A stretch of 35,669 nucleotides of DNA from Thermoleophilia bacterium (lineage in GTDB: Bacteria; Actinomycetota; Thermoleophilia; Gaiellales; Gaiellaceae): NCBI GenBank assembly GCA_013362295.1, contig JABFWJ010000125.1, forward strand, positions 1-35,669. The letters run 5' to 3'. Below, piece by piece: positions 1-8,263 of this stretch. Under the pieces are notes generated by a model. The model saw nothing but the letters and a program-made list of their open reading frames with translations. It made no database searches and was not told the origin of the DNA. The position numbers were made by a program, and so were the translations under genes. Each line of letters begins with the position of its first letter. Position 1 is the stretch's first letter.

Positions 1-2665
1 GCGCCGCGATCTCGAGCCGCACTGCGGCGCTCCGCTCGGGGTCGCGGTGCGAGCCCGTGATGAGGCGTGCGGGGCTGTCCTCGCCGACGAGATGGAGCGC
101 GACCCAGTCGGCGAGGTTCTCCGCGATCAGGTTGCCGAACCGGTGCAGCGTGTGCTCGATGTCCAGCGTCGAGCCGAGGAGTGCGCTCGCCTCGGCGAGG
201 AAGGCGAGCCGGTCGCGCCGGCGCTCGGCCGACCGGTAGAGGTGCGCGTTGTCGACGGCGACTGCGGCGCGGGCGGCGAGCTCCTGTGCGAACTGCAGGT
301 CGGCCTCGCGGTAGTGGCGGCCGGACGCTGCCGACGCGAAGGTCATTGCTCCGAGCGTGCGCTCGCGCGCGCTCAGCGGGACGATCACGGCGGACGTCAG
401 GTTCAGGCTCAGGAGCATCTCGAGATACTCGGGACGCTTCCCGAACGCCGCGCGCAGTGTCGACTCGTCGAGCTCGGTGGACAGGATGGCCTCGCCGGTC
501 CGGATGACCGCGCCGACACCCCAGTCGTCCTCGACTGACGAGGGGAACGCGGCGAACATGCGCCGTGCGAGCTCGGCACTCTCGTCGTCGAGATGCTCGA
601 TCGCCACGCGCTGGATGCCGCCGTCGGGGGCGACGAGGTCGACCGTGCACCAGTCGGCAAAGTGCGGGACCGCGAGCCTCGCGACACGCGCGAGGGTGGC
701 GTCGACGTCGAGCGACGACGCGAGCAGCGTGCTCGCCTCGCCGAGGAAGTGCAGGCGCTCCTGCGCCACGCGCTCCGCCTCGTAGAGCGCGACCTGGTTG
801 ATCGCCATCGCGATGCGGCCCGCGACCAGCTCGAGCAGCCGCGCGTCTTCCTCGACGAACTGGGCGAAGGCGATCGAGCCCGCGTGGAGGACCCCGATCA
901 CGCGGTCCTCGGCAATCAGCGGAATCGCGACGACCGAGTTGATTCCGCGCTCATGCAGCACCGGGCTGACCAGCTCGAGCTCGGACAGGTCGGGGACGAG
1001 GAGCGGCGCCCGCGTCGCGGTGACCGTCCCGGCCAGCCCCTTGCCGACCGGCACGGCAACGGCCCGCTCGAGCTCGGCTCCGAGTCCGACCGTGGAGCGC
1101 ACGTGCAGGAGCCCGTCCTCCTCGAGCAGCAGGATCGCCGCGCTGTCGGCCTCCAGCACCTCGACGATCCGGGTGAGGATCGAGCGCAGGAGATCCTCGA
1201 GGGTCGAGTGCTCGAGCGCCGCCTCCGAGACGCGAGCCAGCTTCCGCAGGGTGGACGCGGCGGCCTCGGCCTCGGTGCGGGCGGCCCGCTCGCGCTGCAG
1301 CAGCAGGCGGCGCTCGTCTTCCGCACGCTTGCGCAGCAGGAACTGGCCGAGCTGCACGCCGATCGCGGTCAGCGTCTGGAGCAACTCGCCGTCCTCGGAG
1401 AGCCGCGACGACGAGAACGCCTCGAGCACGCCGGCGACCTCGCCGTCGACGGGCACGGGGAAACCGACGCCTGAGCGGAGCCCCTCCGCAGCCGCGACGG
1501 AAGCGGTCGTCCCGACGGGAAGGTCGGACAGCCACTCCGGCGACCCCGACAGGGCCACGCGGCCCGCAAGCGTGTCCGGCGAGAGCATCGCGCGTTTCGT
1601 CATCGCGAGGAACCCGTCCAGCTGCCGGCCCGGCCTGGCCCAGGTGACGGTCGGCTGATCGGGGTCCGGGTCGGTCGACCAGTAGCAGCCGACGTCCCAG
1701 TCGAGCGTCCGGCAGATCGCCTCGAGCACCCGCGGCACCGCGTCCTCCGTCGCGTCCGACTCCGCGAGAATGCGCGTCACCGCGAGCTGCAGCTCCGTGC
1801 GTTGCTCGGCGCGCCGCCGCTCGCTGATCTCCTCGACGACGCAGCCGACGCCGAGGGCCTCGCCTTCGGGCGACAAGACCGGGTAGTAGCTCGCGAGCCA
1901 GTGCCTCGTCGCCTCTGGCGTGCTCGGCGTCCCGGAGACGACCTCGAGGGCGATCACGGGCTCACGGCTCTCGAGCACGCGCCGCGCCATCGGCTCGAGC
2001 AGGTGCGCGAGCTGCGGCACGACCTCCGCGAACGTGCGGCCGACATGGTCGGCCGCCGGGCGCTCGTTGATCTCGGCCAGCTTCTCGTTGACGCGCACGT
2101 AACGAAGCTCGCGGTCCCAGAAGCCGAGGCCGACGGGGGCCGCGCCGTAGAGCGCATCGAGCAGCGCCGTCGTGCGCTCGGCCTCGCGGTAGAGCGCCGC
2201 ATACTCGTCGGCGTTGGCACGCTGCTCGTCCGTGCGCGCGAGCTCGTCCGTCACCTCGCGGAAGAACGTGATCGTGTAGCGCACGGACCCGCTCGCGTCA
2301 CGCACGGCGAGGGCGCGCACCTCCGACACGCGGTCGGGCCCGTCGGGCCCGAGCCTGAAGCGGACGAGCATCGGCTCGGTGTCCTCGCCGGCGAGCGCGC
2401 GGCTGCCGGGCAGGCGCCCCGGCGGGAGCGGCTTCCCGTCGATGTCGAAGATCTCGAAGCGCGAGCGCGCCTCGTCCTGCGGCGCGAGGCGCATCTCCTC
2501 GGCCGACGCATAGCCGGTCAGCCGCGCGGCCTCGTCGTTGACGTAGAGTCGCTGGCCGTCGGCGCCCGCCACGACGACGCCCTCGTGCAGGTTTGCCAGG
2601 ACGACCTCGAACAGCTCGCGCGCACCGGCGAGGGCGAACGTCGAGCTCTCGGCGGTTCGACTCAA
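1..2665 (-). CDS. Multi-domain PAS/GAF sensor protein (N-terminal part; output domain lies outside the window)
   Basis: Continuous minus-strand reading frame from a TTG at 2665 (upstream GGGGGG) to the window edge. Translation LSRTAESSTFALAGARELFEVVLANLHEGVVVAGADGQRLYVNDEAARLTGYASAEEMRL is PAS-like; a second PAS-like segment (ALLDALYGAAPVGLGFWDRELRYVRVNEKLAEINERPAADHVGRTF) and repeated GAF-like segments follow. Not in the ORF track because no stop falls inside the window. Confidence 0.85.
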   Translation of the reverse strand, partial: MSRTAESSTFALAGARELFEVVLANLHEGVVVAGADGQRLYVNDEAARLTGYASAEEMRLAPQDEARSRFEIFDIDGKPLPPGRLPGSRALAGEDTEPMLVRFRLGPDGPDRVSEVRALAVRDASGSVRYTITFFREVTDELARTDEQRANADEYAALYREAERTTALLDALYGAAPVGLGFWDRELRYVRVNEKLAEINERPAADHVGRTFAEVVPQLAHLLEPMARRVLESREPVIALEVVSGTPSTPEATRHWLASYYPVLSPEGEALGVGCVVEEISERRRAEQRTELQLAVTRILAESDATEDAVPRVLEAICRTLDWDVGCYWSTDPDPDQPTVTWARPGRQLDGFLAMTKRAMLSPDTLAGRVALSGSPEWLSDLPVGTTASVAAAEGLRSGVGFPVPVDGEVAGVLEAFSSSRLSEDGELLQTLTAIGVQLGQFLLRKRAEDERRLLLQRERAARTEAEAAASTLRKLARVSEAALEHSTLEDLLRSILTRIVEVLEADSAAILLLEEDGLLHVRSTVGLGAELERAVAVPVGKGLAGTVTATRAPLLVPDLSELELVSPVLHERGINSVVAIPLIAEDRVIGVLHAGSIAFAQFVEEDARLLELVAGRIAMAINQVALYEAERVAQERLHFLGEASTLLASSLDVDATLARVARLAVPHFADWCTVDLVAPDGGIQRVAIEHLDDESAELARRMFAAFPSSVEDDWGVGAVIRTGEAILSTELDESTLRAAFGKRPEYLEMLLSLNLTSAVIVPLSARERTLGAMTFASAASGRHYREADLQFAQELAARAAVAVDNAHLYRSAERRRDRLAFLAEASALLGSTLDIEHTLHRFGNLIAENLADWVALHLVGEDSPARLITGSHRDPERSAAVRLEIAA

Positions 2666-2738: not shown

Positions 2739-3506
2739 TCAGGGCGAGACCTGGTTCTCCACGTCGAGCACGAGAATCGCGTCGCCGTCGGGAAGCGGCT
2801 CGAAGTGCGCCGGGAACGTGTTCGAGAGCGTGAGGGCGTCGATCACCGGCGCCTCCACCGCGTCCTTGGCGTCGGCGGCCGGCGCCGCCGCGAGCGGCAG
2901 GGTGTCCCGCAACGGGTGCCTGAGCTCGGGGATCAGATCGTCCTTGCGCAGGAAGACCGCGCTCGTCCCGCCCGACTTCACCGACTGGACGAGCGAGACG
3001 ACCTGGTCGACGCCCTTCAGGTACTTGAACGAGTAGAGCGAGAGCTCGAGCGCCGCGCGGCGCAGGGCACGCTCGCGCTCCGGGGTGCTCTCCCCCTGCA
3101 CCCCGCAGTTGGTCTGCAGGCCGCAGAAGGCGTAGATGAGGGTCTTGTCGGTGCCGTACATGCCGATGTACGGGTCGATCTGGCCGCCGGAGCTGAGCCT
3201 GCGCACGCCGATCGCCTCGAGCCTCAAGCCCTGCACCTGCGCACCGTGCGGCTGGACCGCGACGAGCTGCACGCCGTTCGCGCCCCGGTACTGCGAGGCG
3301 ACGCGCAGGCTGATCTCGCGCGCGCCGGGCAGGCCCTGCGTATCCGGCTTCCACGCCGACCAGACGATCGGCTTCGAGTGGTTCGGCCGGACGATCAGCA
3401 CGACGAACCCCGCGACGGAGATCCAGAAGGCGAGTGCGAGCACGCCGTAGGCGAGCCGGAACATGTGCTTCTGGCCTTCCGGCCGTTCGCTCAGAGGCGC
3501 GGCCAT
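2739..3506 (-). CDS. Single-TM membrane-anchored protein of unknown function, translationally coupled to the FtsH-like protease
   Basis: 255-aa ORF; N-terminal TM (YGVLALAFWISVAGFVVLIV), rest probably extracytoplasmic. ATG overlaps the 3' end of the upstream protease gene by 16 bp. Confidence 0.8.
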   Translation of the reverse strand: MAAPLSERPEGQKHMFRLAYGVLALAFWISVAGFVVLIVRPNHSKPIVWSAWKPDTQGLPGAREISLRVASQYRGANGVQLVAVQPHGAQVQGLRLEAIGVRRLSSGGQIDPYIGMYGTDKTLIYAFCGLQTNCGVQGESTPERERALRRAALELSLYSFKYLKGVDQVVSLVQSVKSGGTSAVFLRKDDLIPELRHPLRDTLPLAAAPAADAKDAVEAPVIDALTLSNTFPAHFEPLPDGDAILVLDVENQVSP

Positions 3507-5812
3507 GCCTCGTCCTTCGTCAGGTCGAGCTCCGGCAGTGCGATCTTCTGGGCATCGAGCAGCCGGACGACGTCGTCTCCGTACAGCTCACGCTTCTCGA
3601 CGAGCTCGTCGGCGACTCGCGCGACCGCGTCGCGGTTCGCCTCCATCAGGTGGTGCGCGGCGAGATATGCCTGGCCGAGCAGCTGCTCGACCATCTGGCG
3701 CTGGCTCGGGTCGTGCAGCACTGCGGACTCCGCGCTCCCCGCGTGCGTGCGGTTCACGATCTGCGTGCCGATCCGCTGGAAGCGCTTCATCACGCGTTCG
3801 CGCGCCTCGTCCTCCGACTCGTCGTCACAACGGAGCTCCATGTGCTCGGGCGCCATCCCACACGCGCCGACCATCCACGCGGCGCGGTCCGTCGCCGCCT
3901 GCACGTCGCCGCCGACACCGGTCGAGTTCTCGCCGTAGAACACACGCTCGGCCGCCATCGCCCCGAGCGCCCAGATCAACCGCGCCATCTCCTCGCTGCG
4001 CCACGACGAGAAGCGCTCCTCCTTCTGCAACGCCATGTGGTGGCCCAGCGAACCGCCGCGCCTGCGAATCGACAGGCGGGTCGACTCCGCCCCCTTCAGG
4101 TACGCATGCGCAGCGAGCGCGTGTCCGGCCTCGTGGATCGCGACCGCGCGTGTCTCGTCGGGCACGTACTCGATGTCGATCGCGGTGCCGGACTCGACCG
4201 TCGTCATCGCGTTCACGATGTCCTCCCAGCCGAACGCCTCGCGCCCCGTGTGGTGAGCGACCGTCAGCGCCATCGAGCAGACCTGTTCGATCATCGCGGG
4301 CGAATAGCCCATGGTCATGCGGTCAAGCTCGTCGCGGCGTTCGGGCCGGTCCAGGTCCACGACGTGGGAGACGCGGCCGAGGTAGAGGTCGAAGATGTCC
4401 AACCGGTCGCTCTTCGTGGGCGTGCGGAACCAGACGTGACGGCCCATGCGGCCCGGCCGAGTGAGCGCAGGATCGAGCTGCTCGATCGGGACGTTCGTCG
4501 CGCCGATGAAGTAGATCTGCTCGTTCCGCGGGCGCGGCGGTGGCAGCCGAAGCCGGCGGCCCTTCACGCGGGGCGGGACGAAGTAGAGCGCGTCGAGCAG
4601 TGTGTTGACGCCGTTCGTGAGCACGCGCTTCCCGAGCGGCGGACTGTCCAGGCCGTCCATGACGACGAGCAGCTGGTTGAGCGCCATCTGGCCGCTGCCG
4701 CCGCCGAACACGCTGCCGCCCGGCACCTGGTTGACGATGCGCACGAATCGCGACGGCTCGGGGCGCTCGGGTGCGCGCAGCTCGAACTGCTTCTCGCGCC
4801 AGGCCCGCGTCTCCAGCACGAGGTCGCCGGACGGCTCGAACGTCGGCTCCCGGAACGAGGGCAGGCTGTCGCCGAGCGTGCTGCGCCGCCTGCCGACCGC
4901 GTCGATCTCGTCGATGAAGACGATGCACTGCCCGCCCCACTTGCGCGCGAGCCGCTTCGCCTTGCGTGCGAGGTAGCGGACGAGGATCGAGTCGAGTCCG
5001 ATGAACGTCTGCGCGAAGCCGGAGCCCGGGATGGTGACGAACGGCGAGTTGAAGCCGGTCGCGATCGCCTTCGCGAGCATCGTCTTGCCGGTGCCCGGCG
5101 CGCCGAGAAAGAGCAGGCCGCGCTCGCGCTTGCCGCCCGCGCGCTCGAACCGCTCGCCGGACTGCCAGAGCGTGACGATCCGGCGGATCTCTTCCTTCGC
5201 CTCGGCCTGGCCGCGTACGTGCTCGAGCTTCACGCCCCATTCCGCGTCGCCGGGCTGGTAGCCGCGGATCTGCGAGATGCCCATCGCGAGCATCGGGCCC
5301 ATGAAGATCAGGAAGTTGAAGAGGAAGAAGAACGGCAGCGAGATGAACGTGCCGAACGAGTTCGGGCTCCAGAGATGGCTGAGGCCGTGCCACAGGGAGC
5401 CTGCCGTCTCGCCCCAGCTGAGCCCGTGCCCGAAAAAGTCGAGCACGATCCAGAGCAGCGTGACGAGGACGAGCACGAAGCGCACGAGCTTCCAGACCAT
5501 GCGCCAGAAGGCGACACGCCGCCGGGCGACGATGTCGTCGTCGCGCAGCTCCACGCTCTCTTCGCCGAAGAGGCTCGGCGTCTCGAGGACCCGGCGGAAC
5601 GCGAGGTCGACGAGCCCGCGGAAGCCGGCCACCTCGATCACCGTCAGCAGCAGCGCGTACCGCAGCGCGAGCCCTTGGCGGTTGTGCAGCCACACGAAGA
5701 CGGCAGGCGACGTGAGCACGGCGACGAACGTGGCGGCTCGCGTCAACGACCGCCACTGCGCGGTCAGATTGGGTGTCGGTCTGCGAGGAGCTGCGCTTGC
5801 GTCGGTCGTCAT
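3491..5812 (-). CDS. Divergent FtsH-like membrane AAA+ zinc metalloprotease
   Basis: 773 aa; several N-terminal hydrophobic segments, Walker A GAPGTGKT, Walker B CIVFIDEIDAVGRRR, second region of homology GATNVPIEQLDPALTRPGRMGR, zinc motif HEAGH, putative third ligand in STGVGGDV. Confidence 0.93.
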   Translation of the reverse strand: MTTDASAAPRRPTPNLTAQWRSLTRAATFVAVLTSPAVFVWLHNRQGLALRYALLLTVIEVAGFRGLVDLAFRRVLETPSLFGEESVELRDDDIVARRRVAFWRMVWKLVRFVLVLVTLLWIVLDFFGHGLSWGETAGSLWHGLSHLWSPNSFGTFISLPFFFLFNFLIFMGPMLAMGISQIRGYQPGDAEWGVKLEHVRGQAEAKEEIRRIVTLWQSGERFERAGGKRERGLLFLGAPGTGKTMLAKAIATGFNSPFVTIPGSGFAQTFIGLDSILVRYLARKAKRLARKWGGQCIVFIDEIDAVGRRRSTLGDSLPSFREPTFEPSGDLVLETRAWREKQFELRAPERPEPSRFVRIVNQVPGGSVFGGGSGQMALNQLLVVMDGLDSPPLGKRVLTNGVNTLLDALYFVPPRVKGRRLRLPPPRPRNEQIYFIGATNVPIEQLDPALTRPGRMGRHVWFRTPTKSDRLDIFDLYLGRVSHVVDLDRPERRDELDRMTMGYSPAMIEQVCSMALTVAHHTGREAFGWEDIVNAMTTVESGTAIDIEYVPDETRAVAIHEAGHALAAHAYLKGAESTRLSIRRRGGSLGHHMALQKEERFSSWRSEEMARLIWALGAMAAERVFYGENSTGVGGDVQAATDRAAWMVGACGMAPEHMELRCDDESEDEARERVMKRFQRIGTQIVNRTHAGSAESAVLHDPSQRQMVEQLLGQAYLAAHHLMEANRDAVARVADELVEKRELYGDDVVRLLDAQKIALPELDLTKDEAWPRL

Positions 5813-5855
5813 TGACAGAGACTAGGTAGTCCCCGTTGTCTTTCGTGTTAAGCCT

Positions 5856-6875
5856 ATGACCGGTTTTACGACGCAGGAAATGGCGCGCGCCCGCAGTTAT
5901 CACCGCCCGCGCTACGTCGCGCTCCTGCTCGACCTCGTCCTGTCTGCGGCGGTGCTCGGCCTCCTCACGCAGCTGTCGCTGCCGCTCCTCGCCGCCCCGC
6001 CGGCGATCGGCACGATCGCCGCCGCGGCGCGCTTGCCGGTCGCGTGGTGGCGCTACCACCACGACCGCGCGGGGGGCTTCGCGACGCAGTCGCCGCAGGG
6101 CTGGGCGGTCGACCGCGGAAAGGAGATCGTGATCGACGCACTGCTCCTGCTGGTCGCGCTCGCGCCGCTCTTCTGGCTCGCACGGCGGTTCCCGCACGGC
6201 TGGGTCTGGCCGACCGCGATCGGCGCCGCGCTGCTCGTGTTCCTGCTCGGCTTCCTCGCACCGGTGGTGCTCGAGCCCGTGTTCAATCGCTTCAGGCCGC
6301 TCGAAGACGAGGCGCTCGCGCGGCGCCTCCACGCGCTCGCCGCGCAGGCGGGCGCACCGGTGCGCGCCATCCTCGTCGCGGACGCGAGCCGCCGGACGAC
6401 CAAGACGAACGCCTACGTCTCCGGCATCGGCAAGACGCGACGCGTCGTTCTCTGGGACACGCTGCTCGCGACGCCCGAGGAGCAGGTCGCGGTCGTCCTC
6501 GCCCACGAGCTCGGCCACCGGGTGCGCCGCCACGTCGCGGTGTTGACCGCGCTCGCGATGGCGGGCGCCGCCGGGTTCGTGATCGTGCTGCGCCTGCTCC
6601 GGCCGCATCCCGTGCCCCGCGACACGGCGTTCATCCTCCTGCTCGGGCTCGCGCTGGAGCTCGCCCTGCTCCCGGCCGGCAGCGCGCTCGCGCGCCGGTT
6701 CGAACGCGTCGCGGACCGCTTCTCGCTCGATCTGACGGGCGACCGGGCGGCCTACCGGGCGCTCCATCACGATCTCGCGACGACGAATCTCAGCGATCTC
6801 TCCCCGCCGAAATGGCTCTACTACTGGATGTTTTCGCATCCGACAGCGCCGGAGCGTCTCTCTGACGCCTCCTAG
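5856..6875 (+). CDS. M48 family (Ste24/HtpX-like) membrane metalloprotease
   Basis: 339 aa; multiple TM segments, zinc motif VVLAHELGHRVRRH, FERVADRFSLDLTGD glutamate/aspartate motif. Confidence 0.92.
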   Translation: MTGFTTQEMARARSYHRPRYVALLLDLVLSAAVLGLLTQLSLPLLAAPPAIGTIAAAARLPVAWWRYHHDRAGGFATQSPQGWAVDRGKEIVIDALLLLVALAPLFWLARRFPHGWVWPTAIGAALLVFLLGFLAPVVLEPVFNRFRPLEDEALARRLHALAAQAGAPVRAILVADASRRTTKTNAYVSGIGKTRRVVLWDTLLATPEEQVAVVLAHELGHRVRRHVAVLTALAMAGAAGFVIVLRLLRPHPVPRDTAFILLLGLALELALLPAGSALARRFERVADRFSLDLTGDRAAYRALHHDLATTNLSDLSPPKWLYYWMFSHPTAPERLSDAS

Positions 6876-6890
6876 ATGCTCGATAGACGC

Positions 6891-6919
6891 TTGACAGACA
6901 CCAGTGGTGATGTCATAGT
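6891..6919 (+). promoter_or_regulatory. Sigma70-type promoter: -35 TTGACA (6891-6896), 17-bp spacer, -10 CATAGT (6914-6919)
   Basis: Perfect -35 consensus with 17-bp spacing to a 4/6 -10. Predicted start falls ~2-3 nt before the ATG at 6929. Confidence 0.65.
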
Positions 6920-6928
6920 GCTGTCATC

Positions 6929-7381
6929 ATGAATCTGACGATCGTGCTCGAGGGAATCCAGGAGGACCTGCAGGGGCTCGCCGAGCTCGGCGACGAGCGC
7001 TCGGCCCAGATCGCCCGGCGCCTCAGCGAGGCGCTGACCTCGAACCTGCGGCTGAAGCTGTTCGACCTGCTCTCGCAGGCCGCCGTGGAGCTCTCGTCCA
7101 AGTTGCCCTCCGGCCACATCGAGGTCCGCCTCGCCGGCCAGGAGCCCGAGCTCGTGTTCGTCGACACGTCCGGCGATGCCGCCGGCGCGGCGACGGGTGA
7201 GGAGCTCTCGGCGCGCATCAGTCTGCGCCTGCCGGAGTCGCTCAAGACCGCGGTCGAGAAGGCCTCGGCGCGCGAGGGCATCTCCACGAACGCGTGGCTC
7301 GTGCGAGCAATCGCGCGGGCGACCGAATCGCGCCCCGTGCACGTCAGCGGCAAGCGCCTGTCGGGCTACGCCCAGAGTTAG
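6929..7381 (+). CDS. Ribbon-helix-helix (HicB/Arc-like C-terminus) protein, putative regulator
   Basis: 150 aa; C-terminal SARISLRLPESLKTAVEKASAREGISTNAWLVRAIARA matches the RHH pattern (strand-helix-helix). N-terminal ~75 aa distinct. Confidence 0.8.
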   Translation: MNLTIVLEGIQEDLQGLAELGDERSAQIARRLSEALTSNLRLKLFDLLSQAAVELSSKLPSGHIEVRLAGQEPELVFVDTSGDAAGAATGEELSARISLRLPESLKTAVEKASAREGISTNAWLVRAIARATESRPVHVSGKRLSGYAQS

Positions 7382-7390
7382 GAGGAAACG

Positions 7391-8263
7391 ATGCAGAAGG
7401 CATTCGACGTCGACGGCCCGGCAGAGATCGACGTCCGGCTTGCGTCCGGCGACATCGAGGTCGACCCGTCGCTCGAGGGCCGCATCGAGCTCGAGCTCGT
7501 CGCGCACGACGAGGAGTCGCAACGGCTCGTCGACGAGGCGCGGATCGAGCTGCACGAGCACCACGGCCGCCCGCAGCTGATCGTCGACGTGCCGCACAAG
7601 AGCCGCGGCTTCAGCTTCTCGATCGTGTTCGGACGGTCGGGCATCTCGTGCCGCATCCGCTGCCCCCGCGGCTCGCTCGTCTCGGTGCGGTCGAAGTCGG
7701 CCGATCTCCGGGTGAGCGGAACGATCGGCGGGCTGAACGTGACGACCGCGTCCGGCGACGTCGAGGCGACGATGGTCGAGGGTGGCGTCAACGTGAAGAG
7801 CGCGAGCGGGGACGTCAACGTCCGCGAGATCCGCGGCGGCGTCAACGTCCAGACGGCGTCGGGCGACATCGAGCTCGACATCGCGCACGGCCCCGTCAAC
7901 GTCCAGACGGCGTCCGGCGACCTTGCGATCGGCGAGGCGTACGACAACGTCAGCGCCAACACCGTCAGCGGCGACCAGCAGCACGGCGCCGTCATGCGGG
8001 GAAACGTCGCCGCGCACTCCGTCTCCGGTGATGTCCGGATCGGTGTGCGCCGCGGCTCGAAGGTCTATCTCGACTGCAACACCGTCAGCGGGGACACGAG
8101 CTCCGAGCTCGAGCTGACCACCGAGGCCCCCGCCGGCGACGGACCGCTCGTCGAGGTCCGGGCGAAGACCGTCTCCGGCGACATCACGATCACGCGGGCG
8201 CCCGCGCCGCAGAGCACGCCGCCCGCCCACGACTCCAATTCGGTGCAGGAGGTGCACTCATGA
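7391..8263 (+). CDS. DUF4097-type beta-repeat protein with SGD ladder
   Basis: 290 aa; SD AGGAGGAA upstream of ATG. Repeated (T/S)xSGD motifs: TASGDVEA, SASGDVNV, TASGDIEL, TASGDLAI, TVSGDQQH, SVSGDVRI, TVSGDTSS, TVSGDITI. Confidence 0.88.
   Translation: MQKAFDVDGPAEIDVRLASGDIEVDPSLEGRIELELVAHDEESQRLVDEARIELHEHHGRPQLIVDVPHKSRGFSFSIVFGRSGISCRIRCPRGSLVSVRSKSADLRVSGTIGGLNVTTASGDVEATMVEGGVNVKSASGDVNVREIRGGVNVQTASGDIELDIAHGPVNVQTASGDLAIGEAYDNVSANTVSGDQQHGAVMRGNVAAHSVSGDVRIGVRRGSKVYLDCNTVSGDTSSELELTTEAPAGDGPLVEVRAKTVSGDITITRAPAPQSTPPAHDSNSVQEVHS
7841..7921 (+). repeat. Near-identical direct repeat inside the DUF4097-like gene
   Basis: gtcaacgtccagacggcgtc(g/c)ggcgac at 7841-7867 and 7895-7921, 26/27 identical, 54-bp offset (18 codons). 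Confidence 0.85.

Follow-up and report, generated by a model that had tools for sequence, protein, structure and literature searches.

The window analyzed here, a 35,669-nucleotide stretch of a Thermoleophilia genome (contig JABFWJ010000125.1 of a draft assembly with 498 contigs, 82.6% complete), carries a gene for an FtsH-like AAA+/M41 zinc metalloprotease whose 3' end overlaps the start of a gene for a small membrane protein, P255, referred to below as the partner. A gene for an M48 membrane protease lies head-to-head with the FtsH-like gene. An earlier sequence-only reading of this DNA had listed these three open reading frames with their overlap and divergent spacing, all of which were found at the positions in Table 1. 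It had also joined the three genes into one functional unit. The evidence below concerns mainly the first two, which probably encode an FtsH-type protease divided between two genes.

Table 1. Features of the protease locus, in window coordinates (TM, transmembrane; AF2, AlphaFold 2)
Feature	Position	Strand	Basis
FtsH-like AAA+/M41 zinc metalloprotease, 773 residues	3491..5812	-	Pfam AAA and Peptidase_M41, invariant motifs, FtsH fold
Partner P255, 255 residues, TM helix 21-39 followed by a domain of ~210 residues	2739..3506	-	50-member alignment, AF2
Stop/start overlap of the FtsH-like and partner genes, 16 bp	3491..3506	-	Read from the sequence
Walker A (GAPGTGKT) to Walker B (FIDEID), residues 237-304 of the FtsH-like protein	4901..5104	-	Alignment, converted coordinates
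Region of the two AAA inserts in the FtsH-like protein	4520..4900	-	Coordinates converted from residue numbers
M41 zinc motif HEAGH, residues 560-564 of the FtsH-like protein	4121..4135	-	Alignment of 34
Divergent intergenic gap between the FtsH-like and M48 genes, 43 bp	5813..5855	.	Starts at 5812 and 5856
M48 membrane protease (HELGH), 339 residues	5856..6875	+	Pfam M48 and M48_N

The pairing was surveyed in 399 genomes of the class. The FtsH-like gene was found in 79 of them, the partner gene in 80 and both in 78 (Fisher p ~1e-79, relatedness not corrected for). The partner gene lies directly downstream of the FtsH-like gene on the same strand in 76 of the 78; in the remaining two (G036 and G047) both genes run to contig edges. 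Two genomes hold a single gene at a contig boundary, namely G028, with the FtsH-like gene at a contig end, and G376, with the partner at a contig start. Only G027 departs clearly from the pairing, with a remote partner homologue but no FtsH-like gene. The homologue is located at L139:4279-4992 on the minus strand, and no FtsH-like gene was seen on its 9.4-kb contig.

Surrounding genes vary among the genomes while the pair stays constant. Because both genes are kept across a class, the arrangement is beyond chance, and the two form a real, conserved gene pair. By these counts the partner is a dedicated neighbour of this FtsH-like family, which bears out that part of the earlier interpretation. 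Full-length partner matches were confined to the same class in a search of 397 genomes across the phylum; two matches outside it, near E 1e-3 and covering the N-terminal and TM region only, were regarded as chance.

Overlap lengths were counted in 51 loci, with partner genes called by anchored starts. The overlap measures 16 bp in 31 of these loci and 4 bp in 15, and a few have a 19-bp overlap or none, with the pair still present. In the 16-bp form the partner start ATGGCC sits within the conserved W770-P771 codons of the protease: the minus-strand sequence GCATGGCCGCGCCTCTGA encodes A-W-P-R-L-stop in the FtsH-like frame and M-A-A-P-L in the partner frame.

Sequence and predicted structure of the two proteins

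The FtsH-like protein matches Pfam AAA (E 5e-25) and Peptidase_M41 (PF01434, E 1.9e-24), and its score of 256.8 bits with the NCBIfam FtsH equivalog TIGR01241 does not reach the cut-off of 600 bits. Judged by these profiles, it is a member of the FtsH/M41 superfamily and not a canonical FtsH. Its AF2 model (predicted local distance difference test score, pLDDT, 80.7) matches FtsH structures with a best Foldseek E of 3.6e-26. In an alignment of 34 FtsH-like sequences, Walker A, Walker B, the RPGRxGR arginines (the second-region motif of the window protein reads RPGRMGR), HEAGH and D636 vary little or not at all, with H560, E561, G563, H564 and D636 invariant. D636 is a candidate third zinc ligand beyond HEAGH, and a FIG pore loop lies between Walker A and Walker B in the aligned relatives. 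Since these motifs are so well kept, the protein is expected to work as both ATPase and protease. A reading as the anti-phage protein IetA was rejected, as the best PADLOC match covers the AAA core only (residues 203-311).

Three further FtsH-type genes are present in the same genome, one of them cut by the end of its sequence stretch; the FtsH-like gene of the pair is therefore an additional copy. Two inserts in the AAA domain separate it from those proteins. The first, after Walker B, comprises 72-97 residues in the family compared with 17-22 in the other FtsH-type proteins of the genome, and the second, between MDG and the GATN strand, comprises 47-48 residues compared with 9.

Four TM helices are predicted for the membrane part from the AF2 helices and the positive-inside pattern. 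The TM2-3 loop carries a mean of 7.3 lysine plus arginine residues (K+R) and the outer loops 0.3 and 0.9. A plain hydropathy cut-off gives three helices, the fourth resting on the AF2 model and the charges. The predicted outer loops have ~6 and ~30 residues with no folded outer domain in the model, and no Pfam match to the FtsH extracytoplasmic domain was found in the protein.

FtsH relatives from other actinobacterial classes (L126-L137) have inserts at both AAA places, mostly shorter, and in several of them (L127-L131, L133, L137) Walker B reads FIEEIDA. No partner homologue was recognised among the direct neighbours of these 12 genes. Three of them (L134, L135 and L136) lie between a lipoprotein-like gene with the motif YVRNTEARTAFKVP, directly upstream, and a cysS-like gene, downstream; the lipoprotein-like gene is perhaps a different dedicated partner.

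Fifty partner homologues could be aligned. A single TM helix near the N-terminus is predicted, and the family has a W-S-x-W-x-P segment, an LCGLGxxC motif and a RREALELALYTF helix. Cys128 is invariant in the alignment and Cys134 occurs in at least 90% of the members. The partner belongs to no family in Pfam, NCBIfam, PHROGs or PADLOC. No Pfam Band_7/SPFH match was obtained with the window protein at 0.1, and no SPFH family appeared among the weak matches of the 50 members. The best hit in a PDB sequence search, a ribosomal protein at E 0.02, was regarded as chance. The AF2 model is confident (pLDDT 90.8), and Foldseek found no fold match at E 0.001 in the PDB and BFVD, nor did the model match any PDB SPFH or FtsH periplasmic domain significantly. 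As modelled, the fold is one not seen in the PDB, and the family is without Pfam or NCBIfam annotation. The sequence-only reading had described a single-TM protein of no known family, which held in both library and fold searches; a family with an unrelated established role was sought in Pfam, NCBIfam, PHROGs and the PDB, and none was found.

The C-terminal domain of the partner probably faces outside the cytoplasm. This orientation is suggested by K+R counts that are higher before than after the TM helix in 37 of the 50 homologues (equal in nine), by the cysteine pair, and by the remote homologue of G027, in which a signal-peptide-like start replaces the TM helix.

Metallopeptidase genes beside the pair

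The M48 protein matches PF01435 (E 2.5e-24) and the CAAX-protease-type membrane domain M48_N (PF16491, E 2.7e-8), and scores at most 24 bits with the NCBIfam HtpX models, whose cut-offs are at least 245. By sequence it resembles the Ste24/CAAX-type M48 proteases, with which it has M48, M48_N and HELGH in common, more than HtpX. The earlier assignment as a membrane M48 protease with HELGH stands, refined from HtpX/Ste24-type towards Ste24.

Orthologues of this gene lie head-to-head with the FtsH-like gene in nine genomes, all of one family (f1). Among the f1 genomes inspected, most lack an M48 gene beside the pair, and no inspected genome from outside f1 has one there. The M48 gene is here an optional, lineage-specific neighbour and not part of the core of the pair. 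Because it is absent beside the pair in most genomes, a three-gene unit is not general, and the earlier claim of one was not sustained: conservation of the neighbourhood holds for the partner and fails for the M48 gene.

The three-gene module itself, in which for example the M48 protease makes a first cut and the FtsH-like protease extracts the fragment, was considered unlikely. In its favour, the nine linked genomes occupy two regions of the FtsH-like tree, requiring four changes; linked copies score above 400 bits with an M48 profile and nearly all unlinked copies 274 or less; and YqgP and FtsH offer a precedent for two membrane proteases acting in tandem (PMC7231995). Beyond the limited distribution, however, the M48 orthologue of G218 is on a different contig from the FtsH-like gene, and other genomes carry another gene, coding for a small HExxH protein, beside the pair.

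This second gene, found beside the pair more often than the M48 gene, encodes a protein of ~120 residues with the motif HELCHVWQ and overlaps the partner gene or starts a few bases after it in 25 genomes. Examples are found at L042:4777-5127, L046:11265-11642 and L091:11128-11475. The protein has no Pfam family at cut-off. The small HExxH family is likely an accessory of the pair.

At none of the 45 loci whose flanks are long enough are the HELCH and M48 genes both linked to the pair (Fisher p 0.004, relatedness not corrected for). Such a pattern might reflect one accessory slot filled by alternative zinc metallopeptidases, HELCH in most lineages and M48 in some f1 lineages, which would prepare substrate for the FtsH-like protease. 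Six of the nine M48-linked genomes, in which no HELCH gene was found genome-wide, fit this proposal. However, the other three carry a HELCH gene elsewhere, which ruled out a strict genome-wide exclusion; neither gene is linked at 16 loci; related genomes are not independent; and catalysis by HELCH is deduced from its motif only. A shared slot of this kind is accordingly rated a minor possibility, compatible with the reading of the pair as a two-gene protease.

Reading of the pair and comparison with known systems

In the E. coli FtsH subunit, two TM helices enclose an outer domain and are followed by cytoplasmic AAA and protease domains, and HflK/C assemble around FtsH and affect the access of membrane substrates (PMC12048511, PMC13097134). 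In Bacillus subtilis, the membrane protein YqgP presents substrates to FtsH (PMC7231995). With these systems as precedents, the preferred reading, held with moderate confidence, is a two-gene FtsH-type protease in which the extracytoplasmic part is a separate membrane subunit or adaptor. The two proteins would be translationally coupled through the gene overlap, and we infer that the partner assembles with the FtsH-like protein in the membrane. The partner would supply in trans the extracytoplasmic substrate sensing, docking or gating that canonical FtsH performs in cis and to which HflK/C contribute in E. coli, a role suggested by the nearly constant pairing of a protease that has no outer domain with a single-pass protein that has one. 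The AAA ring would pull substrates in and the M41 domain would cut them in the cytoplasm.

Three points weigh against this proposal. A shared pattern of presence and absence in neighbouring genes does not independently show that their products touch. The charges flanking the TM helix are equal (3 and 3) in the window partner, so that its orientation rests on the family. Lastly, G010 has a second partner copy without an FtsH-like gene on a 5.6-kb contig, and the partner domain can therefore exist apart from the protease. This copy is found at L138:1686-2423 on the plus strand, downstream of a nucleoside diphosphate (NDP)-sugar epimerase-like gene.

Alternatively, the partner could be an inhibitor dedicated to the FtsH-like protease, or one of its regulated substrates, held at a fixed ratio by translational coupling. 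Tight coupling, together with the fast divergence of the partner (homologues 25-38% identical to the window protein) compared with the protease (relatives 53-64% identical), would fit a regulator no less than a subunit. Nevertheless, co-occurrence this close to perfect would be slightly likelier for an obligate subunit or adaptor than for a substrate, and we regard a role as inhibitor or substrate as rather improbable. A coupled operon for expression only, with proteins that do not work together, is very unlikely: the overlap is enough to couple translation, and a start codon within the conserved Trp-Pro codons may resist loss, but the pair persists where the overlap is 4 bp, 19 bp or missing, and across the whole class while other neighbours vary.

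Of the known systems, the FtsH-like protein is close to the FtsH proteins (E. coli, Thermotoga and the mitochondrial m-/i-AAA proteases), with which it has in common the AAA and M41 domains, Walker A/B, arginine fingers, FIG pore loop, HEAGH and fold. It differs from them by four predicted TM helices in place of two, the two AAA inserts, a dedicated gene partner and the lack of a folded extracytoplasmic domain. HflK and HflC are likewise membrane-anchored with an extracytoplasmic part and associate with FtsH (PMC12048511). The partner resembles them by analogy only and has neither a Band_7/SPFH match nor a significant PDB fold match; Band_7 genes occur elsewhere in these genomes. YqgP is similar as a membrane partner of FtsH and a membrane protease in tandem with it (PMC7231995), but it is a rhomboid protease, whereas the partner is predicted to be single-pass and belongs to no protease family. 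The chloroplast Ycf2-FtsHi motor contains diverged FtsH relatives and is among the structural matches of the FtsH-like model. FtsHi proteins are catalogued as proteolytically inactive, whereas the FtsH-like protein keeps HEAGH and D636.

A broader proposal is offered more tentatively. The protease may have lost its outer domain, and a single-pass subunit with a fold outside the PDB may have replaced it, often together with a small HExxH metallopeptidase in the operon, giving an independent actinobacterial counterpart to the FtsH periplasmic domain and HflK/C. A search of the literature library used here for FtsH with Thermoleophilia found nothing. It is still debated how FtsH-type proteases select their membrane substrates, and there is no consensus on what the extracytoplasmic domain and HflK/C do (PMC13097134, PMC12048511). 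In a lineage with the outer part on its own gene, the outer domain could be removed, swapped or assayed alone. The pair also gives context to the unannotated partner family.

Surroundings of the locus

Downstream of the partner gene, a gene for a PAS/GAF-type sensor protein (window 1-2665, minus strand) continues past the window start; it was not seen beside the partner in relatives. A long open frame on the strand opposite the FtsH-like gene (window 3434-5815, plus strand) was regarded as an artefact of high guanine-plus-cytosine content. A consensus scan gave no sigma-70-like promoter match inside the gap between the FtsH-like and M48 genes. Such a match was found at window 6891-6919, just upstream of a ribbon-helix-helix-like gene that is followed after 9 bp by a DUF4097 gene (window 6929-8263, plus strand); these two genes possibly form an operon.

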